From a virus, in the IMG/VR virus record IMGVR_UViG_3300018080_000086, positions 1-30,637 of that record: a stretch of DNA of 30,637 nucleotides. One strand, written 5' to 3'. The notes beneath the pieces are model-generated. The model was not told where the DNA came from. It worked only from the letters and a program-made list of their open reading frames with translations, and made no database searches. The stretch's first letter is position 1. Every line of letters starts with the position of its first letter. Positions 5,386-28,366 of the stretch are shown here, piece by piece. The position numbers and the translations under genes were made by a program.

Positions 5386-5421
5386 GTCCGCGGGTGATCC
5401 TGTCCCGCCTGCCGACGCGGA

Positions 5422-5433
5422 CCCTGCGTGATG
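5422..5433 (-). promoter_or_regulatory. Operator-like site CATCACGCAGGG (minus)
   Basis: One of four exact copies of this 12-mer in the genome, followed in minus-strand reading by T, as at 6190 and 9594. It sits just after the helicase gene. Confidence 0.6.
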
Positions 5434-5538
5434 TCCACCAGATTCCCTGTCACTCCGGCAAGTCAGCCGGTAGCACGCGGCGGTCCCGCTCGCCGGCGCC
5501 GACCACTGCGGGGGCTCCAGGTATGCTTTCCCCACGGC

Positions 5539-5567
5539 TTGACAGGTTGACCCACAGGTGCTACTCT
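5539..5567 (+). promoter_or_regulatory. Sigma70-type promoter P1
   Basis: TTGACA at 5539-5544, a 17-bp spacer and TACTCT at 5562-5567. The -35 context GGCTTGACAG is shared with the promoters at 6179 and 9612. A perfect 7-bp inverted repeat (CTCTGCG, 3-base loop, CGCAGAG) at 5564-5580 overlaps the -10 and start point and could be an operator or the 5' end of a structured RNA. No gene follows for about 650 bp. Confidence 0.65.
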
Positions 5568-5580
5568 GCGCTCCGCAGAG
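5564..5580 (+). promoter_or_regulatory. Perfect inverted repeat over the P1 start point
   Basis: CTCTGCG-ctc-CGCAGAG, a 7-bp perfect stem with a 3-base loop. Another possible short stem (GGTGC 5583-5587 with GCACC 5595-5599) follows directly. It could be an operator for P1 or a 5' hairpin of a non-coding transcript. No T-run follows, so it is not an intrinsic terminator. Confidence 0.5.
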
Positions 5581-5736
5581 GCGGTGCTCAAGCCGCACCT
5601 GCCCTCCAGCTCAGCCGCGGGGTCCCCTGCTATTGAAGCCCACTTGCGGACGTCCACGGCGCGTCGATCAGTCCCACCGCGTGCGCCATCTCCCTGGCCT
5701 CCGCTCCAGGGAATCTCGGGGGTGGTGGGGGCAGGG

Positions 5737-5762
5737 CGTCACGCCTGCACCCCTGCGTGATG
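5737..5762. promoter_or_regulatory. Bipartite operator-like inverted repeat CGTCACGC-N10-GCGTGATG
   Basis: Two inverted half-sites separated by exactly 10 bases. The right half is part of an exact CATCACGCAGGG 12-mer on the minus strand (5751-5762). The same arrangement with the same 10-base gap is found at 26549-26574, and with one changed base at 5952-5977. Confidence 0.65.
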
Positions 5763-5951
5763 GGATTGGATCGTTCGTTCCTGTGTTGATCGGGGTTGAG
5801 CGCGGGCCGGCGGCGGGCGGGGCGAGGGCCGCGCCGACCGGCCGGCATCCCCCCATCGCCCCCCCTTCCCGTATTAGTGCTGCGGAAAATTTTCGGGTTT
5901 TGGGGGCTCCGCGGTGCGCGGCGAGGTGGAGTGACGGGCGTCGGCTGTGGG

Positions 5952-5977
5952 CGTCACGCAAGGGTTCCAGCGTGAAG
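5952..5977. promoter_or_regulatory. Bipartite operator-like site CGTCACGC-N10-GCGTGAAG
   Basis: Same layout as the site at 5737 with one mismatch in the right half. Together with its flanks (gggcgtcacgc, then gggttcca, then cgtgaa) it also matches the site at 6137. Confidence 0.55.
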
Positions 5978-6136
5978 GCGGGAGGGTTAACGGGGAAAGG
6001 GCGGAGGTTCGGGGCGCTGGCGGCGATTGGCAGGGGGAAGGAAGGAACAGGCCCCCGTCTGATCACTGTGGCCGAGGCCCAGGAGAGCATTCACGGGGGC
6101 ACCGCAATAAGTATACCATGCCGGCGGGGGTGGGGG

Positions 6137-6161
6137 CGTCACGCTGGGGTTCCACGTGAAA
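6137..6161. promoter_or_regulatory. Operator-like site CGTCACGC-N9-ACGTGAAA
   Basis: A close relative of the 5952 site with the same inner GGGTTCC but one base less between halves. It lies about 18 bases upstream of the -35 of the recombinase promoter. Confidence 0.5.
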
Positions 6162-6178
6162 CTGACGCAGACAGGGGC

Positions 6179-6207
6179 TTGACAGATGGCATCACGCAGG
6201 GTAGAAT
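6179..6207 (+). promoter_or_regulatory. Sigma70-type promoter P2 of the late operon
   Basis: TTGACA at 6179-6184, a 17-bp spacer and TAGAAT at 6202-6207, near consensus. The spacer holds an exact CATCACGCAGGG (6190-6201), so a bound regulator would sit between the -35 and -10. GAGGTG at 6215-6220 precedes the recombinase ATG at 6225, giving a very short leader. Confidence 0.8.
6190..6201 (+). promoter_or_regulatory. Operator-like site CATCACGCAGGG inside promoter P2
   Basis: Exact 12-mer lying between the -35 and -10 hexamers. The identity with the copy near 9594 extends to 16 bases (6189-6204 and 9593-9608). Confidence 0.65.
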
Positions 6208-6224
6208 GACCTGCGAGGTGACCA

Positions 6225-6923
6225 ATGGAGCGGAAGCGTGCCCTGATCTATCTGCGGGTATCGACCCGCGAGCAAGTTGAAAACGGGCTGAGCCTGGATA
6301 CGCAGGAGGAGCGGCTCTTAAGCGGCTGCGAGTTCTTCGGCTACGAGGTGGCGGGCGTGCTGCGCGAGAGCGGAGTCAGCGCCGGCAAGCCGCTGAAGAA
6401 CCGGCCGGCGGGCAAGCGCCTGCTGGCGGCGCTGGCGGCGGGCAAGGCCGATGTGGTGATGGCGGTCAGCCTGGACCGGCTGTTCCGCAGCCTGATCGAG
6501 TGCGGCGAGCTGGTGAAGGACTGGGATCGCCGCGGCGTGGTGCTGCGGACGCTGCGGGAGGGCGTGGACACGTCGAGCAGCATGGGCCGGTTCCTGGTAC
6601 ATATCGCGGCGAGCGTGGGTCAGATGGAACGAGAGCAGCTTGGTGAGCGGGTGAGTGAAGTGCTACAGCACAAGAAGCTGCGCCGCCGCCGGTACACGAA
6701 GCGGGTCTACGGGTTCCGCGACGAGCACGGGCTGATGGTGGAAGTGCCGGCGGAGCAGGCGGTGATCCGCCGGATGATCCGGCGCCGCAGCGAGGGCGCG
6801 AGCCTGAAGGCAATCGGCGAGGAGCTGATGGCCAAGGGCTGCAAGGCGCCGAACGGCGGCAAGCGCTGGCACCCGGAGACGGTGCGGCGGATAGTGGAGA
6901 ACGAGATCCATGCCGGAAGCTAA
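6225..6923 (+). CDS. Short serine recombinase (resolvase/invertase-type), 232 aa
   Basis: A site-specific recombinase using a serine nucleophile. The N-terminal catalytic domain starts with ALIYLRVSTREQ, with Ser13 as the likely nucleophile next to Arg11. It continues with VSLDRLFRS near 81-89 and a long helix region (GRFLVHIAASVGQMEREQ). The C-terminal part WHPETVRRIVENEIHAG matches only the beginning of the recombinase domain of large serine recombinases and then stops. It has no zinc ribbon or coiled coil, so it is between small invertases (about 180-200 aa) and large integrases in length. It is the first gene of the late operon and overlaps the next gene. It could act on sites in the region just upstream, or be a regulator. 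Function is inferred from family only. Confidence 0.88.
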   Translation: MERKRALIYLRVSTREQVENGLSLDTQEERLLSGCEFFGYEVAGVLRESGVSAGKPLKNRPAGKRLLAALAAGKADVVMAVSLDRLFRSLIECGELVKDWDRRGVVLRTLREGVDTSSSMGRFLVHIAASVGQMEREQLGERVSEVLQHKKLRRRRYTKRVYGFRDEHGLMVEVPAEQAVIRRMIRRRSEGASLKAIGEELMAKGCKAPNGGKRWHPETVRRIVENEIHAGS

Positions 6924-7266
6924 GAGCAAAGCACCGGAGGCGCCCGCGGCCCCGAAGTACCCGCAGATGCCGGAGCCGCTGGAAGCGAAGGACCGCGAGA
7001 TCCTGGAACTGATCGACTGGCACTGGCGGTGGGTGACGAGTCAGCTGCCAAGCGGCAAGCACTCGCTGGCGATGCGCAGCGACGCGATGATCAAGAACAT
7101 CGGCGTGCGGATCGACCTGCTGAAGGTGGAGCGCGGCGGCGCCGGCGCCCTGGGACTCAGCCTGGATGAAGTATTGGGAGCACTGAGTGCGGAGGGTCGC
7201 CCCCCGACAGTTGACGATGGCGCGGGTGGAGAGAATCCTGCGCCTGCTGCTGGCGGTGACGAGTAA
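6910..7266 (+). CDS. Putative terminase small subunit, 118 aa
   Basis: Called mainly from position: it lies directly upstream of, and overlaps, the large terminase gene. Small terminase subunits recognise the packaging site and hand the DNA to the large subunit. The N-terminus is Pro/Ala/Lys-rich and probably flexible. The middle (AKDREILELIDWHWRWVTSQL, MIKNIGVRIDLLKVE) is helical. The C-terminus is Gly/Ala/Pro-rich. No classic HTH was recognised, so it could be another small packaging-associated protein. It overlaps the end of the recombinase gene by 14 bases. Confidence 0.55.
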   Translation: MPEAKSKAPEAPAAPKYPQMPEPLEAKDREILELIDWHWRWVTSQLPSGKHSLAMRSDAMIKNIGVRIDLLKVERGGAGALGLSLDEVLGALSAEGRPPTVDDGAGGENPAPAAGGDE

Positions 7267-8491
7267 CCTGCCGGAGGACGACCGGCCCGGCTGGTGGCGG
7301 CCCTGGCAGCCGCAGATCCTCAGTTCCCTGCTGGCCCATCCGCGGGTGATCCTGCAGGGCTGCCGGCAGGCGGCGGGCAAGAGCTACGTGGCCGCCCTGT
7401 GGGCGGCGATCTACATCATCTGCGGCTACCGCGTGGCGATCGGGATGCCCTCGCTGCGGCAGTCGAGCCGGATCCTGCTGCGGCGCATCCTGCTGTGGAT
7501 GCTGTGCGTCGAGCAGGTGATGGGGCTCAAGCGCCGCACCAACAACGTGCTGGAGGTGGAGTGGAACAACGGCGGCGGCCTGATGGCGCTCTCCACCAAC
7601 GAGGCGGCGGAGAAGGGGGTGCAGGGCTACACCTGCGCGCTCTTGGTCATCGACGAGGGGCACGAAGCGCCCAATGATATGTTCGGCGCCTACTCCCCGC
7701 TGCCGGCGATCGCGCTCAAGCGGGGATATGGCTCGATCCTGATCCTCGGTGTCGGCGGACCGCAGGACACGGTGATCGAGGCCAAGAAGCCCGCTGGCTA
7801 TCACCTGGAGTTCTGGGACGACGAACGAGTGCTGGCGCTGGATCCAAGCTGGCGCGACTACTTCGAGCAGCAAAAGCTGGAGCTGAGCCAGGACGAGTAT
7901 GACAAGAACTTCCGCTGCCTGCCGGTCAGCGCGGGGCAGCGGCGGGTGTTTTTGCAGCTGGTGGAACATGCCGTGCCGCCCGGACCGGTGAAGCCCGAGC
8001 TGTACTTCGCGATCGACGTGGGGAAGATCGTGGACACCACCACGCTGCTGGTGGTGGAGCAGCGCGGTCCGGCGGCAAACGTGCTCAGCGATCGCCGCTG
8101 GCGCGGGACCAGCTATATCGACCAGGTGCAGGAGGTGGCGGCCTTCATCGACGAGGGCTACACGTTCAATCCCTACAACGTGGCGGTGGAGACCAACGGT
8201 CCGGGCGAGGTGTTCCTGGACGCGCTGCGCCGCGTGTATCCGTTCAGCGGGGCGCGGGGGGTGAAGACGACGGACAGCCCGGGCAGCCGCCGCAAGACGC
8301 TGTGGATCCAGCGCCTGCAGCGCCGGGCTGAGAAGGGCCTGCTGGGGGTGGTCAACCCACAGCTGCGCGCGGACCTGCTGAGCCTGGCCTACGAGGTCAA
8401 GGAGGACGGCCGGTATCTCTGGCCGCACAACGACAACCTCAGCGCCCTGTGGGTGTTTGAGAGCAATACCATGCACGCCGTGGGGGTGTGA
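7187..8491 (+). CDS. terL: Terminase large subunit
   Basis: The packaging motor: an ATPase that pumps phage DNA into the prohead, with a nuclease that cuts it. The Walker A-like motif is GCRQAAGKS at 58-66 and Walker B is ALLVIDEGHEA with Asp156 and Glu157. The C-terminal RNase H-like nuclease has Asp277 in YFAIDVGK, Glu335 in VAVETNG and Asp416 in WPHNDN. The GTG at 7187 has GGGAG at 7176-7180; an ATG at 7217 is an alternative giving ten fewer residues but no well-placed ribosome site. At 434 residues it is of usual size. It overlaps the small subunit gene and is followed within two bases by the portal gene. Confidence 0.93.
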   Translation: MRRVAPRQLTMARVERILRLLLAVTSNLPEDDRPGWWRPWQPQILSSLLAHPRVILQGCRQAAGKSYVAALWAAIYIICGYRVAIGMPSLRQSSRILLRRILLWMLCVEQVMGLKRRTNNVLEVEWNNGGGLMALSTNEAAEKGVQGYTCALLVIDEGHEAPNDMFGAYSPLPAIALKRGYGSILILGVGGPQDTVIEAKKPAGYHLEFWDDERVLALDPSWRDYFEQQKLELSQDEYDKNFRCLPVSAGQRRVFLQLVEHAVPPGPVKPELYFAIDVGKIVDTTTLLVVEQRGPAANVLSDRRWRGTSYIDQVQEVAAFIDEGYTFNPYNVAVETNGPGEVFLDALRRVYPFSGARGVKTTDSPGSRRKTLWIQRLQRRAEKGLLGVVNPQLRADLLSLAYEVKEDGRYLWPHNDNLSALWVFESNTMHAVGV

Positions 8492-8492
8492 A

Positions 8493-9584
8493 ATGACACT
8501 CGAAGTGAAGGCCGGACAGGCTGCCGTGGCCCGCAAATGGGAGTTCCAGCCAACGCAGCTGGGGCGGGACATCTATAACAAGCGGTCGATCACGTCGCTG
8601 GCACGCTCGCCGGTGGACGACCTGGTGAGCTTCGTGATCGGCGGGGTGACGGTGGTCAAGGGCGAGCCACCGCTGGAGCTGAAGGAGTTGGCGGAGCGGC
8701 GAATCACCCAGGGCTCGATCGTGATCGAGCAGGGTGACGGCGGCCCGCAACTGGTGGACGACGTCTACGCGCCGTCACAGAGGCGGTTCTACCAGTACCT
8801 GCGCGATAAGCAGGGCCGGATGGACCTCGTGGTGCCGGATAACAACATGGATCGGGTCTACACGAAGGTGACGCGGGTCTTCGAGGTGTCGGGCTCCGGC
8901 TGGTCAGAAAAACTGGTCGAGCAGCTGGGGGTGCCGGGGCGCGAGAAGACGGTCAAGGCCGTCGAGGGACCGGAGCTGGTGACCATCGACAAACAGCAGC
9001 TGCTGGTGTTCCCGGGCGGGCGCGGCCCGCTGTACTGGGCGCAGCATACGTTCAACGCGATCGAGGAGAACGCCCAGACCCAGCGCCACGTGATGACGGG
9101 GATCAACCTGCTGCCGATCATCAGCGGGAACGTGGGCAGCGCCGACGAGGCGAGCGCGGCAATCAACAGCGCCAGGAACGCGATCATCTTCCCGGGCGAC
9201 GTCAGCGTGGACCGCGTGATCAGCAACGCGGTGATCGGGCAGCTGATCAAGGAAGCGGCGGAGCGGCGCAGCGACTATATCGATGCGATGAACACGGTCG
9301 AAAAGGACACGCCGGAGCGGCCGGTGGCGGCGGACCGCGAGCAGCGCAGCCGGGCGATGACGCAGTTCGTGAACGATGAACGCAAGGCACTGGCGAGGAT
9401 CATGGCGGTGCTGGGGGTGGAGCTGCAGTTCGACCCGTTCATCGTCAAGACCGCCGCCGAGCGGAAGCTGGAGGGGGAGATCCTGCAGATGGTGGAGATG
9501 GAACTGACGCCCGAGGAGCGCAGCCGCAAGAAGCGGGAGCTGGTGGGGCTGCCCGAGCGTGACAAAGTGCCTGTGGCCCCATAA
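8493..9584 (+). CDS. Putative portal protein, 363 aa
   Basis: Called from position between the large terminase and the scaffold/capsid genes, and from general character: a mixed alpha/beta protein with an ERRSDYIDAMNTVEK-like helix and a C-terminal acidic/basic helical tail (LEGEILQMVEMELTPEERSRKK) common in portals. The portal is the ring at the capsid vertex through which DNA passes. The ATG at 8493 follows GGGGGTG and overlaps nearly with the terminase stop. At 363 residues it is on the short side for portals. No unique motif proves the call. Confidence 0.6.
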   Translation: MTLEVKAGQAAVARKWEFQPTQLGRDIYNKRSITSLARSPVDDLVSFVIGGVTVVKGEPPLELKELAERRITQGSIVIEQGDGGPQLVDDVYAPSQRRFYQYLRDKQGRMDLVVPDNNMDRVYTKVTRVFEVSGSGWSEKLVEQLGVPGREKTVKAVEGPELVTIDKQQLLVFPGGRGPLYWAQHTFNAIEENAQTQRHVMTGINLLPIISGNVGSADEASAAINSARNAIIFPGDVSVDRVISNAVIGQLIKEAAERRSDYIDAMNTVEKDTPERPVAADREQRSRAMTQFVNDERKALARIMAVLGVELQFDPFIVKTAAERKLEGEILQMVEMELTPEERSRKKRELVGLPERDKVPVAP

Positions 9585-9593
9585 TGCCGTACG

Positions 9594-9626
9594 CATCACG
9601 CAGGGTAGGGCTTGACAGAGCGTGAT
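9594..9626. promoter_or_regulatory. Operator-like site and inverted partner around the -35 of P3
   Basis: An exact CATCACGCAGGG lies at 9594-9605. An inverted GCGTGAT at 9620-9626 sits in the promoter spacer, so the 7-bp arms ATCACGC and GCGTGAT flank the -35 hexamer with an 18-base gap, unlike the 10-base gap at the other bipartite sites. Confidence 0.6.
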
Positions 9627-9640
9627 AATCAGGGTATAAC
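9612..9640 (+). promoter_or_regulatory. Sigma70-type promoter P3 inside the head gene cluster
   Basis: TTGACA at 9612-9617, a 17-bp spacer and TATAAC at 9635-9640. It lies in the 75-bp gap between the portal and scaffold-like genes. The -35 context GGGCTTGACAGA is the same as in P2. It would give extra transcription of the scaffold, capsid and downstream structural genes. Confidence 0.78.
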
Positions 9641-9659
9641 CCAAAGCGAGGACGCCGAG

Positions 9660-10325
9660 ATGGCGAAGAACACGAAGAAGGAATACAGCGCCGAGGAGAT
9701 CAGCGCAGCCCGCAGGAAGCTGGCGGCGGAGCACGGCGTGGACGACGATCTGGCGACGCTGGTTACGGGGCAGAGCCCCGAGGAGATCGAGGCCCAGATG
9801 AAGCTGGTGGGGGCGCTGACCAAGCGGATCCCGGCGGCGCCGACTGAGGAAGATAGGGACGACGATAAGCCGAAGGACGAGGACCAGACCACGGAGGGCG
9901 GCAAGTTCGACCCGGTGATCTTCGACCAGATGCTGGACAAGCTCATCGGTCGCTTCGGCGAGGAACAGGTTCAGCGGCACCTGGCGAAGCGCCTGGGGGT
10001 CGACACGCTCAACAAGAAGATGGCGGACTGGGAGCTGAGGACGGCGCGGGCAGAGCTCGCCGCCAAGCACAAGCTGACTCCCGAACAGGCCGCCGAGATT
10101 CCGGGCAGTACTCCAGAGGAGCTGCGGCGGAACATGGAATGGGCCGCGAAACAGACGGAGGGTGCGGCCCAGGATCAGCGCGCGGCGGGAGCCCAGAGCG
10201 GCGGCTCCGCGCGGATACCGATGCGGACAATCGCTGGAGGCGGGGCCAGGGAGCCCAAGACCGTCGAGGAGGCCGAGGCGGCCTTCGACGGCGTACCCCC
10301 GGCCTTTGACACGCGCCAGCGTTAA
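9660..10325 (+). CDS. Putative scaffolding protein, 221 aa
   Basis: Likely the prohead scaffold, placed directly before the major capsid gene, where scaffolds usually lie. It is highly charged and helical with no hydrophobic core: Lys/Glu-rich N-terminus (MAKNTKKEYSAEEISAARRK), a central acidic stretch (EEDRDDDKPKDEDQTTEGG), then helices and a Gly/Ala-rich tail. The ATG at 9660 follows GAGG at 9648-9651; upstream in-frame codons lie within promoter P3 and are unlikely to be translated. It is led by its own promoter. The call rests on position and composition. Confidence 0.6.
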   Translation: MAKNTKKEYSAEEISAARRKLAAEHGVDDDLATLVTGQSPEEIEAQMKLVGALTKRIPAAPTEEDRDDDKPKDEDQTTEGGKFDPVIFDQMLDKLIGRFGEEQVQRHLAKRLGVDTLNKKMADWELRTARAELAAKHKLTPEQAAEIPGSTPEELRRNMEWAAKQTEGAAQDQRAAGAQSGGSARIPMRTIAGGGAREPKTVEEAEAAFDGVPPAFDTRQR

Positions 10326-10408
10326 GCGGCAGAGCCGCACGACAAGGCAGAGCCTGCATCAACGGCTCAGAGAGCCATGTGTTCTGACACCCAGGGAAGG
10401 AGTCATGC

Positions 10409-11269
10409 ATGGCGGCATTTGGCACCAGAACGGAGCGCTTCACCGAGCTGTTTAACGCCCTGTTGAAAAGCGACGGTGGGATGCTCAACATGCTCAACGA
10501 CACCGCGATGGTGCCGGAGGGCGCACAGGCCGGCGCGATCACGACGCGGATCACCACGGCGGTGACGCTGCAGTCGACCACCGACGGGACGCCGCTGGCC
10601 AACAACGCGGCGCGGACGGAAGTGGGGCTGACGGTGTTCGAGGGCGTGCACACGATCTCGCTGTTCGAGTACGAGCTGCGCCAGTTCGACGGCAAGGCAG
10701 AGAAGAAGGAGGTCAAGGCCTTCGTCAGCGCGGCGCGGGTGGCGGCGGAGACGGAGATCATCGCGGATTTTGTGGCGGGAACACCGGGAGCGACGGAGAC
10801 GCTGCCGGCCGGCCAGATCAACTTCGGAACGGACGGCACGGACGCGGAGGCCTACACCACGATCGACAAGCTGGACCAAGCGATCGCCTACGTGGACGTG
10901 AACACGGCGGGCGCTGAGGATGGCCAGACATTCATCGTGGTGCCCAAGGCCTGTTACGGCAAGCTGATCAGCCTGCGCGGCGTCAGCCGGCTCAGGGGCG
11001 ACTTCGATCGTGAAGGCCGGCGGTGGTACTACCAGGGCTACCCGATCTTCAAGACGAGCGTGACGACGAACTTCGGCGGGGCCAGCAAAGCGGCCGCGTT
11101 CGTGGTCAACGTGGACGCGGAAGCGCTGGTGTGGACGGATATGACGATGCCGACGGAGGAATTCACGCACCACAGCGACAACATGTGGAAGCTGTTCCTC
11201 AACACCTACGGCTTCGCGGGGCTGATCCAGGCGTCGCACTATGCCGAGGTCGCGAACCCGTCGAGTTAG
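10409..11269 (+). CDS. Major capsid protein (HK97-like fold expected), 286 aa
   Basis: The main shell protein. It follows the scaffold-like gene after an 83-bp gap and has a strong ribosome site (AAGGAG at 10397-10402). The composition fits capsid proteins: few Cys, many short beta-prone segments, and VAAETEIIADF, TFIVVPKACYGKLISLRGV and YYQGYPIFKTSV, like the spine-helix and P-domain strands of HK97-type shells. It has no sign of a fused protease, and no separate head protease gene was seen, so the shell may mature without cleavage, or the protease was not recognised. The call is position plus composition. Confidence 0.72.
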   Translation: MAAFGTRTERFTELFNALLKSDGGMLNMLNDTAMVPEGAQAGAITTRITTAVTLQSTTDGTPLANNAARTEVGLTVFEGVHTISLFEYELRQFDGKAEKKEVKAFVSAARVAAETEIIADFVAGTPGATETLPAGQINFGTDGTDAEAYTTIDKLDQAIAYVDVNTAGAEDGQTFIVVPKACYGKLISLRGVSRLRGDFDREGRRWYYQGYPIFKTSVTTNFGGASKAAAFVVNVDAEALVWTDMTMPTEEFTHHSDNMWKLFLNTYGFAGLIQASHYAEVANPSS

Positions 11270-11275
11270 CAGATC

Positions 11276-11776
11276 ATGGCAGGAACCATCAACGAGTTCA
11301 GTCTGACGGACGAGGTCAAGCGGCGGCTCGACGACCTCAGTGGCGAGTGGTTCGACACCGACACCACGGAGGTCTATCGAGGGTTCCTGCTGGATCACGT
11401 GCTGGCCGATGAGAGGGAGTACGAAGTGACGAAACGCGGGACGGGGATCTTCACCTGTAGCACGGTGGAGAGCCCCGTCGCGCTGATCTGTACGGACAGC
11501 CCGCAGTTCACGGCGGAGGACGGCGTGACCTACAGGCTGTACAGCCTGGGGCTGAAGATCTACGTGACGGCCAGCGCCGCGACGGCGAGCTCGATCAGCG
11601 TGACCGGCGTGCGGGTGAACTTCCGCGAGGCCAGCGCGCGGCTGTTCGAGTACCTGGCCGGGCACGAGGCGCAGAAGATCAGCGAAAACCTGAGCGACCA
11701 CAGTCACAGCCCGGAGGACGTGGCGGCGCGGCTGACACTGATGGCCTCGCGAATCCGCGGGCCGATGGGAATCTGA
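11276..11776 (+). CDS. Putative head-tail connector protein, 166 aa
   Basis: Lies six bases after the capsid gene, where siphoviruses carry head-completion or neck proteins. The N-terminus is helical (EFSLTDEVKRRLDDLSGEWF), the middle is beta-rich and the C-terminus again helical (FREASARLFEYLAGHEAQKISE). That alpha-beta-alpha plan fits adaptor proteins, but no exact family is recognised. Confidence 0.55.
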   Translation: MAGTINEFSLTDEVKRRLDDLSGEWFDTDTTEVYRGFLLDHVLADEREYEVTKRGTGIFTCSTVESPVALICTDSPQFTAEDGVTYRLYSLGLKIYVTASAATASSISVTGVRVNFREASARLFEYLAGHEAQKISENLSDHSHSPEDVAARLTLMASRIRGPMGI

Positions 11777-11787
11777 AGGAGCAATCA

Positions 11788-12174
11788 ATGCTATACACCA
11801 TGACGCCGATTCAGCTGACTGAATACGGCAAGAAACACTGGCTGGTGGACCTCGGCTGCGAAGCGCCGAGCGGCGGCCGGCAGGTGGCGCGGACGGAAGG
11901 GCTGGACGGCGAGACGCTGTTGTTCGACAGCCGCGCCGAGGCCGAAGCCTGGATCAAGGCCAACCCCGACTGGGTGCAGACGACGCGGAAGCACGTCACC
12001 CCCGGCAGCCGCGGGTCCGGCGAGTGGGCGGACACCAGTGTCAAGAAGCTGCGGCCGCTGATCGCGGAGTGCACGGACGTGAACAAGCTGCGTGAGTTCG
12101 TCGAGACGGACGAGCGGAGCACGGCGGTCAAGCTGGCGGAGGCGCGGATCGCGGAGCTGGAGGACGCTAGCTAG
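11788..12174 (+). CDS. Hypothetical protein in the head-tail joining cluster, 128 aa
   Basis: Unknown function. The ATG at 11788 follows AAGGAG with good spacing. The N-terminal half is a short alpha/beta domain (GKKHWLVDLG, RAEAEAWIKANPDW). The C-terminal 45 residues (KKLRPLIAECTDVNKLREFVETDERSTAV) look like a small SAP- or Rho-N-like helical module often appended to phage structural proteins. Such modules can bind nucleic acid, but this is only a resemblance. Confidence 0.65.
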   Translation: MLYTMTPIQLTEYGKKHWLVDLGCEAPSGGRQVARTEGLDGETLLFDSRAEAEAWIKANPDWVQTTRKHVTPGSRGSGEWADTSVKKLRPLIAECTDVNKLREFVETDERSTAVKLAEARIAELEDAS

Positions 12175-12176
12175 CT

Positions 12177-12407
12177 ATGCCCAAGCTGATACCAGTCAAG
12201 GCGGGCACCTATGAGCCGGTGTTCGTGAAGATGGACGATGGCAGCGTGCTGTGCGACGACGGCAAGCCGGCGGAGTTCAGCCGGCGGGAGGCGCTCTGGA
12301 CGAGTTGCCACCGCCGGCCGCTGAAGGAGTGGCTGGCCGGCAAGGGCCGCACGCGCAAGAAGGTGAAGCTGCCGGGCGAGAGCAAGGCGACCGGTGGCGG
12401 CGCCTAA
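12177..12407 (+). CDS. Small hypothetical protein, 76 aa
   Basis: Unknown function. It starts two bases after the previous stop. The first half contains GTYEPVFVKMDDGSVLCDDG, which looks like a beta hairpin; the second half is basic (KGRTRKKVKLPGESK). Its end overlaps the start of the next gene. It may be a small neck or assembly factor, given the neighbours. Confidence 0.6.
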   Translation: MPKLIPVKAGTYEPVFVKMDDGSVLCDDGKPAEFSRREALWTSCHRRPLKEWLAGKGRTRKKVKLPGESKATGGGA

Positions 12408-14242: not shown

Positions 14243-14244
14243 CG

Positions 14245-19400: not shown

Positions 19401-19957
19401 CGGTGCTCCCCAGCGGCGACATCTGGCCCAGCGACGAGTTCAGCAGCGTGGTGCTGGAGGCGTTCGGGATCGGCAAGACGATCAAGGCGCTGGGCATCCG
19501 CGTGACCGGGCTGCCGCAGCTGACCGAGGACGGCACGGACTGCTGGCTGCTGGTGAAGGAGTTCCTGGCGACGATGAGCCCCTGGCGCGAGGCGCTGGTG
19601 AAGCTCAGCAGCGCCTACACCGGCAGCGCCGAGACGATCTACGCGCCGAACACACTGGCCAAGGTGGAGGACGCCCAGCTGGGGCAGCCGCGGGTGAAGA
19701 TCGCGCCGGGCCTCAACGCGGCGTGCGAGTATCGCGCGCTGGCGGCGGCGCGCTACCTGGCCTGGAACGGGATCAAGCGGCTGCAGGTGCGGACCTACAC
19801 GACGAGAAAGCCGCCCGCCACCCTGCCGGACCGCGCCGAGACGGTGACGATGGGCGACGGCTTCAGCGGGGTGGTCTTAAGCCGCGAGTTCGAGCGCGAC
19901 CGCGGGGCGGAGCGGCTGGAACTGCGGCTGCTCAATCTCAACTATGGACTGGACTGA
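19397..19957 (+). CDS. Hypothetical tail-tip-associated protein, 186 aa
   Basis: Unknown function, probably structural from its place between the hub-like and fibre genes. The ATG at 19397 overlaps the TGA of the hub-like gene. It has a mixed sequence with TKIKALGIRV-like strands, a helix in NAACEYRALAAARYLAWNGI and a C-terminal strand ELRLLNLNYGLD. No domain is recognised. Confidence 0.65.
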   Translation: MTVLPSGDIWPSDEFSSVVLEAFGIGKTIKALGIRVTGLPQLTEDGTDCWLLVKEFLATMSPWREALVKLSSAYTGSAETIYAPNTLAKVEDAQLGQPRVKIAPGLNAACEYRALAAARYLAWNGIKRLQVRTYTTRKPPATLPDRAETVTMGDGFSGVVLSREFERDRGAERLELRLLNLNYGLD

Positions 19958-19960
19958 ATA

Positions 19961-20473
19961 ATGACAGTGGTGCCGGGACGGACGAGCGAGGACCAGGTGC
20001 TTCAGCTGCTGAGGCGGCCGGCACCGCCGCTCGGCCGGCTGGCTGCCGCCGGCTACCAGGACCGCGGGCGGCAGGCGCCGTTCACGGAGAACGAGTTCAC
20101 GGTGGTGGCCGAGGATCTGGCCGACGACGGCGGGATCCCCGGGGCGCTGAGCGGCCGCCTCGACCAGTCGCTGGCCGACAACGCGACCACCAACATCACG
20201 CTGGGGGCGATCGCCGACATCACGGCGGCCTTCATCGACTACCACTGCATCCGCTCGACGGACACCGAGTGGGGGCAGATTCAGGTGGTGCTGCTGCAGG
20301 ACGGCTCGACGGTGGAGGTGTTCAAGGATCAGCACTGGCCCAGCGGGCAGAGCGGCTGCGGGCTGACGATCAGCGGCGACGTCAGCGGCGGGAACCTGCG
20401 GCTGGTGATCACCACGAGCTCGACGGGCAGTGCCGCCGACTTCCGCGCGACGTTCCGCACGGTGGTACCCTGA
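19961..20473 (+). CDS. Hypothetical tail protein, 170 aa
   Basis: Unknown, probably a small tail-tip or fibre-associated protein. The second half (TNITLGAIADITAAFIDYHC, IQVVLLQDGSTVEVF, LTISGDVSGGNLRLVITTSS) has the beta-sandwich look of phage fibre or carbohydrate-binding domains. It starts three bases after the previous stop and its TGA at 20471-20473 overlaps an in-frame ATG of the fibre gene. Confidence 0.65.
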   Translation: MTVVPGRTSEDQVLQLLRRPAPPLGRLAAAGYQDRGRQAPFTENEFTVVAEDLADDGGIPGALSGRLDQSLADNATTNITLGAIADITAAFIDYHCIRSTDTEWGQIQVVLLQDGSTVEVFKDQHWPSGQSGCGLTISGDVSGGNLRLVITTSSTGSAADFRATFRTVVP

Positions 20474-20499
20474 TGACATCTCGATTGTGGGAGGACCAC

Positions 20500-22251
20500 A
20501 TGGGTAGAATTGCGACATGGCTGGTGCTGCTGAGCGTGGTGGTGCTGCTGACCTGCAGCGCCTCGCGGCGCGGCATCGACGGCGATCCGGTGGTGCTGGT
20601 CAGCGGCAACCTGGACACCGAGACCAGCGAAATGGTGCTGAGCTACAACGGCACGGCGGGGCTGGAACTGAGCAGCGTGGGCTGGCAGATGGGGACGGGC
20701 GCCACCGTGCCGACGCTGGCGCTGGCCAGCAACACGCTGACGCTCTACACCTACGCCGGCACGACGGGCAGCCAGTACAACCTGCGGCTGGACACCGGCT
20801 CCAGCCACGTCGACAGCTACATCGAGCTGGACGCCAGCAACGTGCGCTACGGCGCCAACCAGAACTTCGCCGAGACCTTCGACGCCGGCGCGGGCAGCGA
20901 CTACATCGCGCGCTACACCTCGTCGGCGACGACGTTCAACTACGGCCAGGCCGATCTGGATACCATGTTCAGCGGCAGCGGTGCGGGCAACTTGCTCAAG
21001 ATCGACGCCGGCGAGTACGAGGTCATTATCGGCGGCGCGACTCCGAACGCCCTGCTGACAGTCGATGGCGTCGTGAGTCTGAAGGAAGTGGCTGCGCCGG
21101 GCAACACTGCGGCCTATGGCAAGCTCTACGCCGATAGCGGCGACACGCTGCTGTACTTCGTCGCGAGCGACGGCACGGCCTACGATCTGACGGCGGGTGG
21201 TGGCGGTGGCGGCGACTCGGACTGGACCGTCTCAGGTACTGACCTTGTTCCGTTCACGGCGGGCAACGACGTGGTCCTGCGCGCTGGCGAGACGATGGGG
21301 ATCAGCGCCGGCGCGGCAGGTACTGAGGTGCTGTTCTTCAGCGTGACGGCAGACGCCGACAGCCGCTTCAGCATCGAGGCCGGCGGCGACCTGAACTGGG
21401 GCGACGGCACGGCCGTGCCTGACGTGCGGCTGTACCGCAGCGCGGCGGACACCCTCAGCCTGGACGACCTGCTGGCGGTCGCCAGCGCCGCCACCAGCGG
21501 CAGCACGCTGAGCGTCACGCGCGACCTGGCCTTGGCCAGCACGGATAGCCCAGTGGTGAGCATCGTGCAGGACAATGCGAGCGACGATCAGGCAGCATTC
21601 GTCATTCAACAGGACGGCATAGGAATCGGGTTGGCCGTGTTTGGCAATCAATCCGAAGTTGCGATTCAGGCTGTCTCAAACACGGCAACCGCGATCCAAG
21701 CCCATGCTTCCGCTTCATCCGGTGTTATTCACGGCATTTACGGTTACACGGATAGCAGCCACAATGAGGCCTATGGCGGTAGATTCGATCAGACGTTCGT
21801 GGGGCGGGATACGACATATTTTGAGCAGAACCCTGCCGTTTCGCCGGCCCTCGCGGACCCGCCTGGGGGGCAGGGCCGGCTCGGCTGCACGGCGGGGGAC
21901 TGGTTCACCTGGGTGAACTCAGACGGCAAGGCGTACTCATACGCCGACGCGGACGGCGACACGCTGGTCCACGTTGAGGAGAGCGCTGACGAGGACAAGA
22001 TCCGGCTCGACACCGGCGGGACGGAGCGGGTGGTGATCGACTCGACCGGGGTGGACTGCAGCGTGGAGGTCAGCGCCACCGGGAACTTCGACGTCGGCGG
22101 CGTGAACGGCGTGAGCGGGCTGGTGACGGTGATCACGGACGTGGATATTAACACCCAGCAGGTCAAGACGCGCGAACTCACCTTCACCGGCGGAATCATC
22201 ACCAGCATTGGCGCGGAGTCCGGCTGGACTCCGGCGCCCCTGAACCCATAG
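20500..22251 (+). CDS. Tail fibre-like protein with N-terminal signal/lipobox-like segment, 583 aa
   Basis: A long, Gly/Thr/Asp/Ser-rich, beta-rich repeat protein typical of receptor-binding fibres (SIELDA-, DADSRFSIEAGGDLNWG-, NFDVGGVNGVSG-type segments, as in fibres with coordinate-like repeats). Uniquely, it starts MGRIATWLVLLSVVVLLTC: a basic residue, a hydrophobic core and Cys19 at a lipobox-like position (Leu-Leu-Thr-Cys; Thr at -1 is unusual). ATG 20500 is preferred over ATG 20473 because GGGAGG lies seven bases before it. Bases about 21590-21830 are clearly lower in GC, as if this receptor region was exchanged. The protein could be a fibre or an exported surface protein. Confidence 0.7.
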   Translation: MGRIATWLVLLSVVVLLTCSASRRGIDGDPVVLVSGNLDTETSEMVLSYNGTAGLELSSVGWQMGTGATVPTLALASNTLTLYTYAGTTGSQYNLRLDTGSSHVDSYIELDASNVRYGANQNFAETFDAGAGSDYIARYTSSATTFNYGQADLDTMFSGSGAGNLLKIDAGEYEVIIGGATPNALLTVDGVVSLKEVAAPGNTAAYGKLYADSGDTLLYFVASDGTAYDLTAGGGGGGDSDWTVSGTDLVPFTAGNDVVLRAGETMGISAGAAGTEVLFFSVTADADSRFSIEAGGDLNWGDGTAVPDVRLYRSAADTLSLDDLLAVASAATSGSTLSVTRDLALASTDSPVVSIVQDNASDDQAAFVIQQDGIGIGLAVFGNQSEVAIQAVSNTATAIQAHASASSGVIHGIYGYTDSSHNEAYGGRFDQTFVGRDTTYFEQNPAVSPALADPPGGQGRLGCTAGDWFTWVNSDGKAYSYADADGDTLVHVEESADEDKIRLDTGGTERVVIDSTGVDCSVEVSATGNFDVGGVNGVSGLVTVITDVDINTQQVKTRELTFTGGIITSIGAESGWTPAPLNP

Positions 22252-22263
22252 CACGGAGGCTCT

Positions 22264-22611
22264 ATGACGGAACAACTGATCGTGGCGCTGACGGGCAGCG
22301 GCGGGGCGATGATCGTCCTGTTCCTGCTGCTGTTCTGGTACATGCCGAAGCGCGACCAGCGCCACACGGAGACGATGCGGCGGATCAACGATGAGAATCG
22401 CGGGCTGGTGAAGGAGCTCGTGGACTCCCACGAGCGCTCGCTGGGCCGGCTGTCGGCGGCGCTGGAGCGCAACACCCGGGTGCTGTCGCTGCACAGCCGC
22501 GGGCGCCTGGTGCGGACACTGACCGAGCTGGGGATGGATCCCCAGGCCGCGATGCGCGAGGCGGAGCAGCAGATCCCGCTGAGCGCGGCGGCGGAGGTCC
22601 CGCTTGATTGA
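22264..22611 (+). CDS. Putative holin-like single-span membrane protein, 115 aa
   Basis: One clear membrane segment near residues 12-28 (GSGGAMIVLFLLLFWYM), then a long charged helical tail (RRINDENRGLVKELVDSHERSLGRL). A short outer N-terminus, one span and a charged tail fit a type III-like holin or a spanin-like or accessory membrane protein. It lies four genes before the endolysin in the lysis area. The ribosome site is GGAGG at 22255-22259. Its end overlaps the next gene. Confidence 0.55.
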   Translation: MTEQLIVALTGSGGAMIVLFLLLFWYMPKRDQRHTETMRRINDENRGLVKELVDSHERSLGRLSAALERNTRVLSLHSRGRLVRTLTELGMDPQAAMREAEQQIPLSAAAEVPLD

Positions 22612-23188
22612 CCTGTTCGCCGGCGGGCTGAGCCTGCCGGGCCGCGTGTACATCGTGTGCCCGGGGCCGAACGGCGTGGCGGCCTACGAAAAGGTGCCGC
22701 GCGGCGCCTGCGTGATCGCCGTCAACTACGGCGTCTGCGCGGGGGTGAAGCCGACCTACCACCTGGTGGCCGACGTGCGCGCGCCCTGGTCCTGCTGGTG
22801 GCCGGACCAGCTGCCGGACGGGGTGACCAGAATCTACAGCCGCGACCTGGCGGCGAAGGGGATCACCTGCGAGCGCAGCTTCAACCAGAACCCGCCGATG
22901 GGGGCGGGTAAGTACGAGCCGCAGTACGGCTGCCTGCGCTGCGGTGCGGGCGGGCTGGGCCAGGCGCTGCAGGCCTGCCACTGGTTCATGCCGGCGAAGG
23001 CCTGGGTGGGAATCATCGGCGCGGACCTGGACGGCGAGTGCTACTTCGACGGCACGGTGGTGAAGGCCTACCTGGGCGGCGACCACTGGCAGAGCCAGCG
23101 CCGGCGCGTGGAGCAGCTGGTGGACTACCTGCGCCGCCAGCGGGGGATGGTGATCGAGAGTCTGAGTGAAACGACACTGCGGATCTGA
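22604..23188 (+). CDS. MptE/sialyltransferase-like (DUF115-type) enzyme fold, 194 aa
   Basis: Likely an enzyme with a Rossmann-like fold. The N-terminus RVYIVCPGPNGVAAYEKVP has the Gly-Pro motif of MptE-like and GT42-type sialyltransferase proteins. It is followed by ACVIAVNYGV, KPTYHLVADVRAP and the conserved-looking GAGGLGQALQAC and VGIIGADLDGECYFDG. Such phage proteins may modify a sugar or surface polymer; no substrate can be told from sequence. The TTG start at 22604 follows GGAGGT at 22592-22597 and overlaps the holin-like stop. Its place in a lysis cassette is unusual. Confidence 0.6.
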   Translation: MIDLFAGGLSLPGRVYIVCPGPNGVAAYEKVPRGACVIAVNYGVCAGVKPTYHLVADVRAPWSCWWPDQLPDGVTRIYSRDLAAKGITCERSFNQNPPMGAGKYEPQYGCLRCGAGGLGQALQACHWFMPAKAWVGIIGADLDGECYFDGTVVKAYLGGDHWQSQRRRVEQLVDYLRRQRGMVIESLSETTLRI

Positions 23189-23205
23189 TCCGCGAAGGAG
23201 GACGT

Positions 23206-23499
23206 ATGTCCTGGATTTTGAAACTGTTGTCGAAGAAGCAGCTGCTGAGCCTGCTGTGGAGGATCCTGCGCAAGGTCTTCGGGCGGGTCTACGAGGACGC
23301 CGCGCGGCTGGTGGTCAAGGCCCAGCTGAACGGCGAGCTGAAGACCGGGCTGGAGCGCGCGCAGTGGGTGGCGCAGCACCTGCTCGGCAAGTACGACGAG
23401 CTCAGCGAGTGGCGCTGGGTGGTCAACCTGATCATCGAGGGCGCGGTCAGCGAGTACAAGCGCGACTTCCGCCCGCTCGAGCTGCTGAGGTTCGGGTAG
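23206..23499 (+). CDS. Hypothetical protein in the lysis cassette, 97 aa
   Basis: Unknown function. Strong ribosome site (AAGGAGGA just before ATG 23206). Residues 1-25 are amphipathic and basic (WILKLLSKKQLLSLLWRILRK), so it may attach to the membrane. The rest is helical and has no clear spanning segment. Its stop overlaps the GTG of the endolysin gene by one base. It may aid lysis, from position only. Confidence 0.65.
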   Translation: MSWILKLLSKKQLLSLLWRILRKVFGRVYEDAARLVVKAQLNGELKTGLERAQWVAQHLLGKYDELSEWRWVVNLIIEGAVSEYKRDFRPLELLRFG

Positions 23500-24164
23500 T
23501 GCTGACCATCACGGACCGGCTGTTGGAGAAGCTGGCCGATGCGGCGTATGTCCGGGCGGCCGTGGCTCGCGCGCGGAAGCTGACGGGCGGGCCCAATGCC
23601 TGTGCCGCGACGCTCACCACAGTGCTGAAGGACCTCGGCCTGGTCGACGCCGTCAGCACCTGGACCAGCCACGTTATCGGCACCGAGAAGCAGCTGAGCA
23701 AACTGGAGCAGCGCTACCCGATGCTGCGCGTCCTGCACCCCGCCGAGATGCTGCCCGGCGACGTCTGCGCCAGCCGCGACCGGCCCGACGACTCAAACGA
23801 CGCCCCCGACCACGTGTTCACCTTGGTCGGTGCGCCCGAGGGGCCAGACCGCGGCAACCCGTTCGCGCTGGTGGTCGACAACTACTGCCGCTCGGGCAGG
23901 CCGTACTGGCGCAACCTGGGCAGGAGCGGATGGTACAAGGGCGCCTGGCGCGGCAAGACGCCGGTGGCCTACGCGCTGCGCTTCGTCGACCAGCCCCTCT
24001 GCGACGACGCCGCGCACCTGGCTCGCCAGCGGGTCGTCGACGCCCTGGACGAGGTCTACCGCGCCACCGACGGCGCGTTGCTGCCCCAGGCGGTCCTGCA
24101 CCACCTCAATTTGTTCCGTTGGTCGCCAGAGCTTCGGGAGTTCAAGCCGCGATCAGCTGCGTGA
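23499..24164 (+). CDS. Endolysin-like cysteine peptidase (CHAP/NlpC-P60-like), 221 aa
   Basis: Likely cuts peptide or amide bonds in the cell wall at the end of infection. The possible catalytic Cys35 is in GPNACAATLTTVLKDLGL at the start of a helix, with His105 in PDHVFTLVG and a polar residue in VVDNYC (Asp127/Asn128), the order used by CHAP and NlpC/P60 enzymes. No binding domain such as LysM is visible, and no signal peptide. GTG 23499 overlaps the upstream stop by one base; the frame is open further up but through the previous genes. The end overlaps the convergent integrase gene by 23 bp. Another role for this cysteine peptidase fold cannot be excluded. Confidence 0.6.
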   Translation: MLTITDRLLEKLADAAYVRAAVARARKLTGGPNACAATLTTVLKDLGLVDAVSTWTSHVIGTEKQLSKLEQRYPMLRVLHPAEMLPGDVCASRDRPDDSNDAPDHVFTLVGAPEGPDRGNPFALVVDNYCRSGRPYWRNLGRSGWYKGAWRGKTPVAYALRFVDQPLCDDAAHLARQRVVDALDEVYRATDGALLPQAVLHHLNLFRWSPELREFKPRSAA

Positions 24165-25755
24165 GTCCGCGCAGCGGATATGAATACCCACCCGTTGGGG
24201 CTGCCAACTGCACGGTATTCATAACCGGGCGGAGGCGCAGCACGGGCTGGTCGAGGTTGAGATCCACGCAGTCGACCACGAGGCTGAGGAGCTCCGCGAG
24301 CTCCGGCCAGGCACCGCGCTGCCAGAGTTCGCGGATGGAATTGATGCGCTGGGTGGCGCGCACCAGGTCCGGCTCGCGCTGAGCGGCGGCGTCGAGCTCG
24401 AAGGTGAGCCGCTCCCGCCGCTGTTCGGCGCCGGCCACCAGCTGGCGCAGTTCACCCGCGCGGCGCTCCAGCACGTCGATCGTCACCGGCAGCGAGCCGT
24501 GACTGGCGGCCCTCAGCAGGCCGTCCTCGATCCGCCGCAGCTCCCCGCGCCGGCGAGCGAGTGAGCGCCCCAGGCTGGCAGCCTCCGCCCTGGCCTCCTC
24601 CAGTCGGGCCTCGCCGGCGTCGCGCAGCCGGCAGAGCAGCAGCCCGCTGCGGTCGCCCAGGCTGGCGAGCTCGGTCAGCACGGCGTGGTCCAGGGCCGGG
24701 GCGCTGACCGCCGCCCGCAGGCTGCCGTCACCGCGCAGTGGCGCACCGGACTCCGTGGCGACGAGCCCGCCCGATCCACGGATGCGGTCGGCACGGTAGT
24801 AGTAGGGGTAGCGCACCCCGCCGCGCCCCACGCACTGGCGGCAGTAAAGCGGCAGCGGCTCGCCGGCGCGGCGGGCCGGGCTGGTCAGGGTGTAGCTGGA
24901 ACAGACCACGCGCGGCAGCAGGTAAACGTACTGGCCGTTCCCGCGCGGGCGGCCGCCGCGGCGCCGGGGCTGGGCTTCACCCTGGGCCGCCTCCCAGAGG
25001 CCGCGCTCGATCCGGCACTGGTGCCGCAGCGTCAGCACCTCACCGTCCCGCCAGTACTCCCCCAGGTAGAACGGGTTGCCGAGGATCCGGCCGATGCTGC
25101 TCAGACTCCAGCCGCCGCCGCCGTTCGCCGGATGGCCCTCGGCCGTCAGCCAGCGCCGCAGCTCACCCCAGCTGGCGCCGTCCGCGGCGCGCTGAAACAT
25201 CTCGGCGAGGACGGGCCACTGCGCGGGATCCAGCACGGGCACGCCGCGCTCCTCGCCAGGCCGGCAGCCGAAGGGCGAGCGCGTGCACCAGTAGCCGGCC
25301 TCGAGGCGGCGCCGCCGGCCCTCGCGGGTCTTCCAGCTGACGAGCTCGCTGAACCGCTGGGCCTGGGTGACCTCGTCCTCCTCCATCCAGCGCGTCTGGA
25401 GGATCGCGGGATCGACCTCGATCCCCATCAGCGGCACGATCCGCACGTCGTAGCGGTCCAGCACCTCCTCGCGGAAGTCGGCGAACTCGCGGACGTTGCG
25501 GCTGATCCGGTCGCGGTGCCAGATCACCAGCACGTCGACGGCGCGCGCGCGGATCAACGCGACCACCCGCTGCCAGCCTTCGCGCCGGGCCATGCTGCCG
25601 CGTTTGAACGCGGTCAGCTTGTCCTGCTCCTCGGCGGCGATCTGCCAGCCCTCGCGCTCGCAGCGCAGCCGCCCGGAGGCCAGCTGGCTCTCGATGCTGG
25701 TGGCCTGCTCCTCGCGGGTGGTGGAGACCCGGGCGTAGATCACGGCGCGCGTCAC
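24142..25755 (-). CDS. int: Large serine integrase, 537 aa
   Basis: The enzyme that inserts phage DNA into the host chromosome. The catalytic domain starts AVIYARVSTTREEQ with Ser11 as nucleophile, then VLVIWHRDRISRN (Arg81, Arg83 and Arg86). The recombinase domain runs about 155-270 (GCRPGEERGVPVLDP, SLSSIGRILGNPFYLGEY). The zinc-ribbon region has Cys285, Cys305 and Cys308, but the expected fourth Cys is Tyr288. A coiled-coil region follows about 380-470. The GTG start overlaps the stop of the nuclease gene. The last 27 residues lie on and after the palindromic att-like site at 24179-24223. It is read leftward and converges with the endolysin gene. Confidence 0.93.
   Translation of the reverse strand: MTRAVIYARVSTTREEQATSIESQLASGRLRCEREGWQIAAEEQDKLTAFKRGSMARREGWQRVVALIRARAVDVLVIWHRDRISRNVREFADFREEVLDRYDVRIVPLMGIEVDPAILQTRWMEEDEVTQAQRFSELVSWKTREGRRRRLEAGYWCTRSPFGCRPGEERGVPVLDPAQWPVLAEMFQRAADGASWGELRRWLTAEGHPANGGGGWSLSSIGRILGNPFYLGEYWRDGEVLTLRHQCRIERGLWEAAQGEAQPRRRGGRPRGNGQYVYLLPRVVCSSYTLTSPARRAGEPLPLYCRQCVGRGGVRYPYYYRADRIRGSGGLVATESGAPLRGDGSLRAAVSAPALDHAVLTELASLGDRSGLLLCRLRDAGEARLEEARAEAASLGRSLARRRGELRRIEDGLLRAASHGSLPVTIDVLERRAGELRQLVAGAEQRRERLTFELDAAAQREPDLVRATQRINSIRELWQRGAWPELAELLSLVVDCVDLNLDQPVLRLRPVMNTVQLAAPTGGYSYPLRGLTQLIAA
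24179..24223. other. Candidate phage attachment site (attP) inside the integrase 3' end
   Basis: A 45-bp imperfect palindrome: outer arms of 10 bp match perfectly (TATGAATACC and GGTATTCATA), inner arms GTTGG and CCAAC share the same centre at base 24201. Serine integrases bind attP sites of about 50 bp with imperfect inverted arms around a central 2-bp core, next to their gene. Against this, the palindrome has odd length, while a 2-bp core predicts even. It is not a terminator, as no T-run follows. Confidence 0.45.
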
Positions 25756-26144
25756 CGGCGCACCCCGCCCCAGGCCTCGACGGCCAGGCCGGCCGTCACC
25801 AGCGCGGTGTTCAGCTCCACGGGCCCGCTGCCGCAGTCGGCCCACAGCCAGGCCAGGGTGCGGCCGTAGTGATCGAACTCCTCGCCGTCCTCGCGCTCCA
25901 GGTAGACGCTGCCCGAGCGCTCGAGCACGAACGCCAGCACGAAGGCGGCGGCGAACGCCGCGGCGCTGCCCTCGCCGAGCTCGGGTGTGTTGATCCCCAG
26001 CAGCCGGACGTGCAGCTCCTCGTCCCCCTCGACCACCACCACGGTGTCGCCGTCGATCGTCCTGATGTACTCGACCTCGGAGAGCTCCTGCGCCCAGGCG
26101 GGGCTGGCCGACAGGATGAGGAGCAGCGCTGCCAGCCACCTCAC
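25752..26144 (-). CDS. Secreted SNase-like (thermonuclease) nuclease, 130 aa
   Basis: A small exported nuclease of the staphylococcal-nuclease family. The N-terminus MRWLAALLLILSASPAWAQE is a signal peptide with a likely cut after Ala-Trp-Ala. The SNase motifs are present: IDGDTV (Asp33), VRLLGI (Arg47), TPE (Glu55) and HYGRTLAW (Arg95). At the position of Asp40 in the staphylococcal enzyme there is Asn52, so metal binding or activity may be changed. It is short for the family. The GTG at 26144 overlaps the upstream stop; the stop overlaps the integrase start. So a secreted nuclease is co-expressed with the integrase in lysogens, a possible lysogenic-conversion gene. Confidence 0.82.
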   Translation of the reverse strand: MRWLAALLLILSASPAWAQELSEVEYIRTIDGDTVVVVEGDEELHVRLLGINTPELGEGSAAAFAAAFVLAFVLERSGSVYLEREDGEEFDHYGRTLAWLWADCGSGPVELNTALVTAGLAVEAWGGVRR

Positions 26145-26551
26145 TGGTGGGCCTCCAGGGTGCCGCTCAGGGCGGTCAGGCAGCTGATGCAGTGGGTGCT
26201 GCCGCCGGGGCTCAGGGCGCCGCAGCGGGGGCAGGTGAGCGGCGGTGGCTCGGCGTGGGGCATTGCCGCCGGCGGCGGTGGTTCAGGCTCGCTGGGCGGG
26301 GGCTCGGGCTGGGGCGGCACCGCCTGGGCCTGCTGGTGCTCGTGCTGCGCGCGCCGCCACTGGTAGTCGCGTTGCTCGACGGCGCGCTGGGTCTTCACGT
26401 CACGTGCCAGCAGGTAGTACAGGACGGCGAAGGGACCGAACAGGCAGCCGCCGAGGCAGGCGTTGCCCTGACTGTGCCCCTTGGCACCTGCCATGTTGAC
26501 GCAGAGCACGATCCAGACGACGGTCAGGACGGCGATCAGTGCGGTCTCCAT
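26141..26551 (-). CDS. Membrane protein with C-terminal zinc ribbon, 136 aa
   Basis: Two hydrophobic segments near the N-terminus (METALIAVLTVVWIVLCV and CLFGPFAVLYYLLAR) anchor it in the membrane. A charged helix, a Pro/Glu-rich linker and a zinc ribbon (CPRCG and CISC) follow. It may sense or bind a partner on the cytoplasmic side. The ATG at 26551 (or GTG 26554) follows a G-rich stretch. The stop overlaps the start of the nuclease gene, so it heads a three-gene operon with the nuclease and integrase. No known function; a moron-like gene is possible. Confidence 0.7.
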   Translation of the reverse strand: METALIAVLTVVWIVLCVNMAGAKGHSQGNACLGGCLFGPFAVLYYLLARDVKTQRAVEQRDYQWRRAQHEHQQAQAVPPQPEPPPSEPEPPPPAAMPHAEPPPLTCPRCGALSPGGSTHCISCLTALSGTLEAHQ

Positions 26552-26574
26552 CACGCACCCCCACCGGCGTGATG
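26549..26574. promoter_or_regulatory. Bipartite operator-like site CATCACGC-N10-GCGTGATG
   Basis: A perfect 8-bp inverted repeat with a 10-base gap, the same layout as at 5737-5762. It lies in the divergent gap between the zinc-ribbon gene (whose start codon is inside the left half) and the small acidic gene, and touches the -10 of the latter. It may control both. Confidence 0.65.
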
Positions 26575-27733: not shown

Positions 27734-27751
27734 CGATGATCTCCCTGACCT

Positions 27752-27757
27752 GAGTAT
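27752..27757 (-). promoter_or_regulatory. -10-like TATACT before the helical protein gene
   Basis: TATACT on the minus strand, 18 bases before the GTG at 27733 and after the repressor gene. The -35 at 17-18 bases is weak. Two more minus-strand TATACT hexamers occur at 28355-28360 and 6110-6115 in this genome's control DNA. Confidence 0.35.
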
Positions 27758-28360: not shown

Positions 28361-28366
28361 CCACGA

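Follow-up and report, generated by a model that had tools for sequence, protein, structure and literature searches.

The sites of the DNA invertases Hin and Gin (hix and gix) are 26-bp dyads, with 12-bp arms around 2 bp. In the res site of Tn3 one resolvase binds to dyads with differing spacers, site II being 9 bp and site I 3 bp longer than site III (PMC9943657); site III lies proximal to tnpR, and the promoters embedded in res are repressed by TnpR (PMC7157771). For the larger serine recombinases, the recombinase domain of the LI integrase reads the major groove at half-site positions 9–11, within an RD region of positions 1–12 (PMC3783163). Mycobacteriophage L5 represents another kind of dispersed operator, with more than 20 asymmetric 13-mers oriented according to the direction of transcription (PMC9283540).

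The window analysed here is the whole of a 30,637-nucleotide viral stretch (IMG/VR record IMGVR_UViG_3300018080_000086). Its ends are an exact 123-bp direct terminal repeat (1–123 and 30515–30637), so that the contig probably represents an entire phage genome of about 30.5 kb, in circular or circularly permuted form. The gene order begins with a DnaB-like helicase (ending at 5385), an 840-bp gap, a small serine recombinase, a 118-aa protein, terminase and portal; a 75-bp gap follows the portal, and then come a scaffold-like protein, capsid and tail genes. A leftward nuclease and large serine recombinase are followed by an acidic gene, a leftward operon that includes an XRE repressor, and finally a rightward early operon. 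The phage thus has both a large serine recombinase, the integrase (24142–26139, minus strand), and a small one of resolvase type (6225–6923, plus strand).

The first-pass annotation had reported four exact copies of a 12-mer, CATCACGCAGGG, and all four are present (5422–5433 and 5751–5762 on the minus strand, 6190–6201 and 9594–9605 on the plus strand). It had also judged four copies to be very improbable; the count alone does not bear this out, as four copies are also found for each of two further GC-rich 12-mers, but the non-randomness itself stands and placement is the stronger evidence for it. The core CRTCACGC is found 17 times against 6.26 expected, and none of the dinucleotide shuffles reached 17 (maximum 12). 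Eight of the 17 copies lie within the 5.3% of the genome that we count as non-coding, using gene bounds set from the list of open reading frames (binomial p = 1e-6); one more, at 26549, pairs with another copy in a dyad overlapping a start codon, and the remaining eight are isolated within genes, near the expected background. A position matrix built from the seven strong sites gives these 16.3–21.4 bits, compared with a mean best score of 14.1 bits in shuffled sequence. Seven of the eight best scores belong to the sites named below and six of the eight exceed 17 bits, the only other high scores being at 20194 (a near-perfect coding copy, CATCACGCTGGGG; 18.5 bits) and 17178 (14.9 bits). Codon and GC bias that makes the motif frequent by chance would suit the coding copy at 20194 and the other fourfold 12-mers, but is barely credible beside the non-coding enrichment and the matrix scores. 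Within this genome the motif is not evenly spread in coding DNA and clusters at the late promoters and the integrase operon, as had been proposed. We count the sites as real because of this non-coding placement, more than because of the number of 12-mers: they are non-random and of operator type, with at least six predicted protein-binding sites at the starts of late and integrase genes.

The best inverted partner of each strong half-site was sought over gaps of 0–30. The summed partner score is 34 at a gap of 10 and 29 at a gap of 18, with 12–26 at the remaining gaps. Paired arms of about 12 bp, set at either of two spacings (N10 and N18), make up the sites, an arrangement that had been overlooked. 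The seven sites are:

Site A, 5401–5433, minus strand: 33-bp dyad, strong half CATCACGCAGGGT (5421–5433, minus strand), partner TGTCCCGC matching at 7 of 8 positions.
Site B, 5737–5762, minus strand: 26-bp dyad CATCACGCAGGG-GT-GCAGGCGTGACG.
Site C, 5952–5977, plus strand: 26-bp dyad CGTCACGCAAGG-GT-TCCAGCGTGAAG.
Site D, 6137–6161, plus strand: imperfect 25-bp dyad CGTCACGC-N9-ACGTGAAA, partner matching at 6 of 8 positions.
Site E, 6190–6202, plus strand: strong half-site CATCACGCAGGGT, lying between the -35 and -10 of the late promoter.
Site F, 9594–9627, plus strand: 34-bp dyad CATCACGC-N18-GCGTGATA, second arm perfect, enclosing a -35 hexamer.
Site G, 26549–26574, minus strand: perfect 26-bp dyad CATCACGC-N10-GCGTGATG.

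The N10 dyads of sites B and G and the one-mismatch dyad of site C had been described before and are confirmed, as is the occurrence of inverted pairs, most sites being two-armed; the second arm of site F (9620–9627), the 25-bp dyad of site D and the 7/8 partner of site A (5401–5408) had been missed. The partner arm of site A is moderately likely to be real (by our estimate it would arise by chance in about 3% of cases). For site E no convincing second arm was found at gaps of 0–30; an apparent partner in the 34-bp frame (6216–6223) was rejected, since it is the Shine-Dalgarno sequence AGGTGA of the recombinase gene, which starts 2 bases after that frame. Placed in a 26-bp frame, sites B, C and D have a central GT in common, with B inverted relative to C and D. 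Sites A–E all fall in the 840-bp gap immediately before the small recombinase gene, and site F in the gap after the portal gene. Site G lies between the leftward nuclease/integrase operon, whose first start codon it overlaps, and the rightward acidic gene; a perfect CRTCACGC dyad thus stands upstream of the operon of the large integrase.

The position of the cluster between the DnaB-like helicase gene and the recombinase and terminase genes, together with a threefold repeat of GGCGTCACGC, could indicate that it mainly serves packaging, or replication as an origin whose iterons adjoin the DnaB gene, the copies at promoters being incidental. Iterons are evenly spaced direct repeats, however, whereas the spacing here is 215, 185 and 53 bp with mixed orientation, and sites F and G are located elsewhere, at promoters; we regard an origin or packaging site as very improbable.

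A relaxed scan returned six sigma70-like sites, with a full TTGACA in four (5539, 6179, 9612 and 28394). Three of these are:

5539–5567, plus strand: promoter in the intergenic region of sites A–E, TTGACA-N17-TACTCT, with no motif on the promoter.
6179–6207, plus strand: promoter of the recombinase/terminase operon, TTGACA-N17-TAGAAT, with the motif within the spacer.
9612–9640, plus strand: promoter of the scaffold and capsid genes, TTGACA-N17-TATAAC, with the 12-mer just upstream of the -35.

Of the four best sigma70-type promoters, those at 6179 and 9612 therefore carry CRTCACGC sites, and the placement of two 12-mer copies at promoters, one in a spacer and one just upstream of a -35, is as first described; the second arm of site F also falls in the promoter spacer. 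The fourth promoter, at 28394 (TTGACA-N17-TATACT), has CTCCGA-N4-TCGGAG in its spacer and more TCGGAG half-sites flanking it on both sides (28360–28440), and these are likely to be the operators of the XRE repressor (27804–28304). Like the CRTCACGC sites they are dyads within promoter spacers, but they differ in sequence, in spacing and in the promoter that they occupy, so that CRTCACGC is, as had been stated, a second and distinct operator-type motif. Directly downstream of the XRE repressor gene and in the same direction is a long protein (26843–27811, minus strand) that appears helical or TPR-like by eye; a family search with its product gave no convincing match, and it may work together with the repressor.

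A likeness to the stoperators of L5 had also been suggested. An asymmetric 13-bp core repeated at several non-coding positions of a phage genome is indeed common to both, but the resemblance does not extend further: there are about seven sites here, in both orientations and mostly as inverted pairs. No repressor of the L5 type, a monomer with two domains, was recognised, and the PHROGs matches of the XRE protein are to general regulators.

The gene that follows the cluster is the best-placed candidate for the binder, and the first-pass annotation had passed it over:

6225–6923, plus strand: small serine recombinase, 232 aa, with a catalytic domain, a long helix and a DNA-binding domain of the recombinase-domain type.

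Pfam finds Resolvase (PF00239, E 1.6e-31) and the start of Recombinase (PF07508) in its product, and in PHROGs it matches DNA invertase and integrase families (PHROG 95/125). The catalytic motifs YLRVST and DRLFR are present and conserved in the alignment. In an AlphaFold2 model (pLDDT 88.8) a helix at residues 119–152 is followed by strands and helices at 164–231, so that the protein is short, with a long helix and then a single DNA-binding domain, and the nearest structures in Foldseek are the Bxb1, TP901-1, Tn3 and gamma-delta recombinases. A truncated or broken integrase was considered and rejected, because about 40 viral relatives and several from plasmids have the same length of 220–280 aa. 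By its sequence and predicted fold, the protein is assigned to the small serine recombinases of the resolvase/invertase group.

We propose, with a probability of roughly 0.4, that the CRTCACGC sites are dimer-binding sites of this recombinase, through which it would damp its own promoter, that of the capsid genes and that of the integrase operon. A dimer would occupy two inverted half-sites of about 12 bp in a total of 25/26 or 33/34 bp. The late operon opens with the recombinase gene, and the rising level of the protein would fill sites D and E on its own promoter; at the -35 of the capsid promoter, which site F spans, it would damp scaffold and capsid transcription, and on site G, at the start of the integrase/nuclease operon, it would keep the integrase low. 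Together this would amount to negative feedback in late transcription; with their central GT, sites B, C and D could double as recombination or synapsis sites. We infer the recombinase as binder, repression upon binding and any recombination; repression is preferred to activation because the sites lie inside or across the -35 and -10 elements of promoters with near-consensus hexamers. Positions 9–11 from the centre, those read in the LI integrase, correspond in the 26-bp frame to the TCA of CRTCACGC. The N10 and N18 spacings differ by 8 bp, and a single rigid HTH dimer would not be expected to accept both.

The arrangement resembles res of Tn3 and gamma-delta, in which a small serine recombinase is likewise found beside several inverted-pair sites of differing length that overlap promoters. 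Within the 840 bp there are dyads of 26 bp (B and C), 25 bp (D, imperfect) and 33 bp (A, with one arm at 7/8), and the repression of res promoters by the Tn3 and gamma-delta TnpR is what we propose for the phage recombinase. The sites do not form the compact array of site I, linker, site II and site III, however, as they are 50–300 bp apart with F and G remote. The phage further differs in having sites at other promoters 3 and 20 kb off, a DNA-binding domain of the large-integrase type, and no transposase. We know of no precedent for the dispersal of resolvase-type sites over a genome, although each step of the mechanism has one in the Tn3 resolvase and the res promoters that it represses (PMC7157771). 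In size the 26-bp dyads also resemble hix and gix, but no invertible gene segment or enhancer was seen, and the 34-bp dyad is not of the invertase type.

Relatives of the recombinase provide a further comparison. One that is 38% identical, in an otherwise unrelated virus (L112), is preceded by two neighbouring dyads, one of 34 bp, GGCGCAAC-N18-GTTGCGCC, and one of 26 bp, GGCGCAAC-N10-GTTGCGCC, and by a third, more distant one of 24 bp. The tandem array is compact, 50–157 bp before the recombinase; its perfect 34- and 26-bp dyads have no other copy in that record and, with the 26-bp dyad nearer the gene than the 34-bp one, are ordered like Tn3 sites II and III. The relatives nearest to L112 were fetched in order to look for recurrence of this geometry. 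In plasmid pDMC1 (L193) a perfect 26-bp dyad, TGTCACGA-N10-TCGTGACA, lies 98 bp before the recombinase and is unique in 58.7 kb, and pALVIN02 (L194) has the 26-bp dyad CTTCAAGC/CTTCAAGA. The pDMC1 half-site matches YRTCACGC at 7 of 8 positions, but this likeness may be chance, because the proteins are only 29% identical and several dyads were examined. Across 47 relatives, 28 even-centred dyads precede the recombinase compared with 13 in shuffles, but the excess is weak when set against the remaining upstream regions within those loci (p = 0.06), and the pair of 26 and 34 bp is absent upstream of most recombinase relatives examined. TGTCTA repeats upstream of an Oscillatoria recombinase, considered as 34-bp sites, were rejected as 11-bp direct repeats beside a CopG-type gene. 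A small HTH gene is adjacent to or overlaps the end of the recombinase gene in L112 (2489–3390), L193 (1986–2995) and a further relative, L186 (1486–2731), a pair that recurs in plasmids and phages.

The HTH gene could itself be the binder in L112 and L193, and in the phage a separate regulator could bind CRTCACGC and repress the late and integrase promoters, the recombinase being merely one of its targets. Sites in or near strong promoters at three loci have the layout of a classic operator regulon, the strong half is an asymmetric 13-mer whose second arm is weak or absent at some sites, and putative small DNA-binding proteins are among the products of the early region. The candidates are an HTH_17 protein (28446–28649), two predicted winged-helix proteins (29368–29685 and 29981–30238), or a protein that was not recognised; the promoters of these genes lack the motif, and no link between it and any of them could be made. 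The XRE repressor and the winged-helix proteins had been put forward as binders, and nothing favours either: the former has its own CTCCGA-N4-TCGGAG operators, and the latter have no family match. The combination of N10 and N18 would also be unusual for one HTH dimer, and both spacings recur before the L112 recombinase. A separate regulator is nevertheless quite possible and a serious rival, because of the weak p value, the few 26+34 pairs, the HTH neighbours and the remote sites F and G; it would make this an ordinary yet real second operator regulon for the late genes of a phage without close relatives.

Searches for phage relatives by terminase, capsid, repressor, DnaB and recombinase yielded nothing beyond a contig of 99.99% identity and a single distant DnaB locus, and scans of the genome collection found no provirus and no close host. 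A host transcription factor that links the late genes to host physiology would fit the resemblance of the motif to an ordinary bacterial palindrome. Throughout the viral collection, however, the 26-bp dyad occurs in just 88 stretches, which by our estimate is about the chance number, and in none of them is a recombinase near the dyad except in the sibling contig; a host factor is thus improbable.

Binding by the recombinase has its own difficulties, in that site E lacks a second arm and the distance to the gene is 3 kb for site F and 20 kb for site G, whereas the L112 sites stay beside their recombinase. If the recombinase is the binder, the local promoter repression known for resolvases would be spread across a phage genome, and phage and plasmid recombinases of about 230 aa, mostly annotated simply as integrase or recombinase, would gain predicted 26- and 34-bp targets. 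The broader idea, that a small serine recombinase has turned into a genome-wide regulator of transcription whose dispersed dyads couple recombination, late expression and integration, we consider doubtful.

In the first part of the genome, the start of a DUF5131 (Gp37/Gp68-like) gene is present twice, in 2684–3403 and 3195–3977, and the first copy is apparently fused to another domain, which is ASCH-like by eye.
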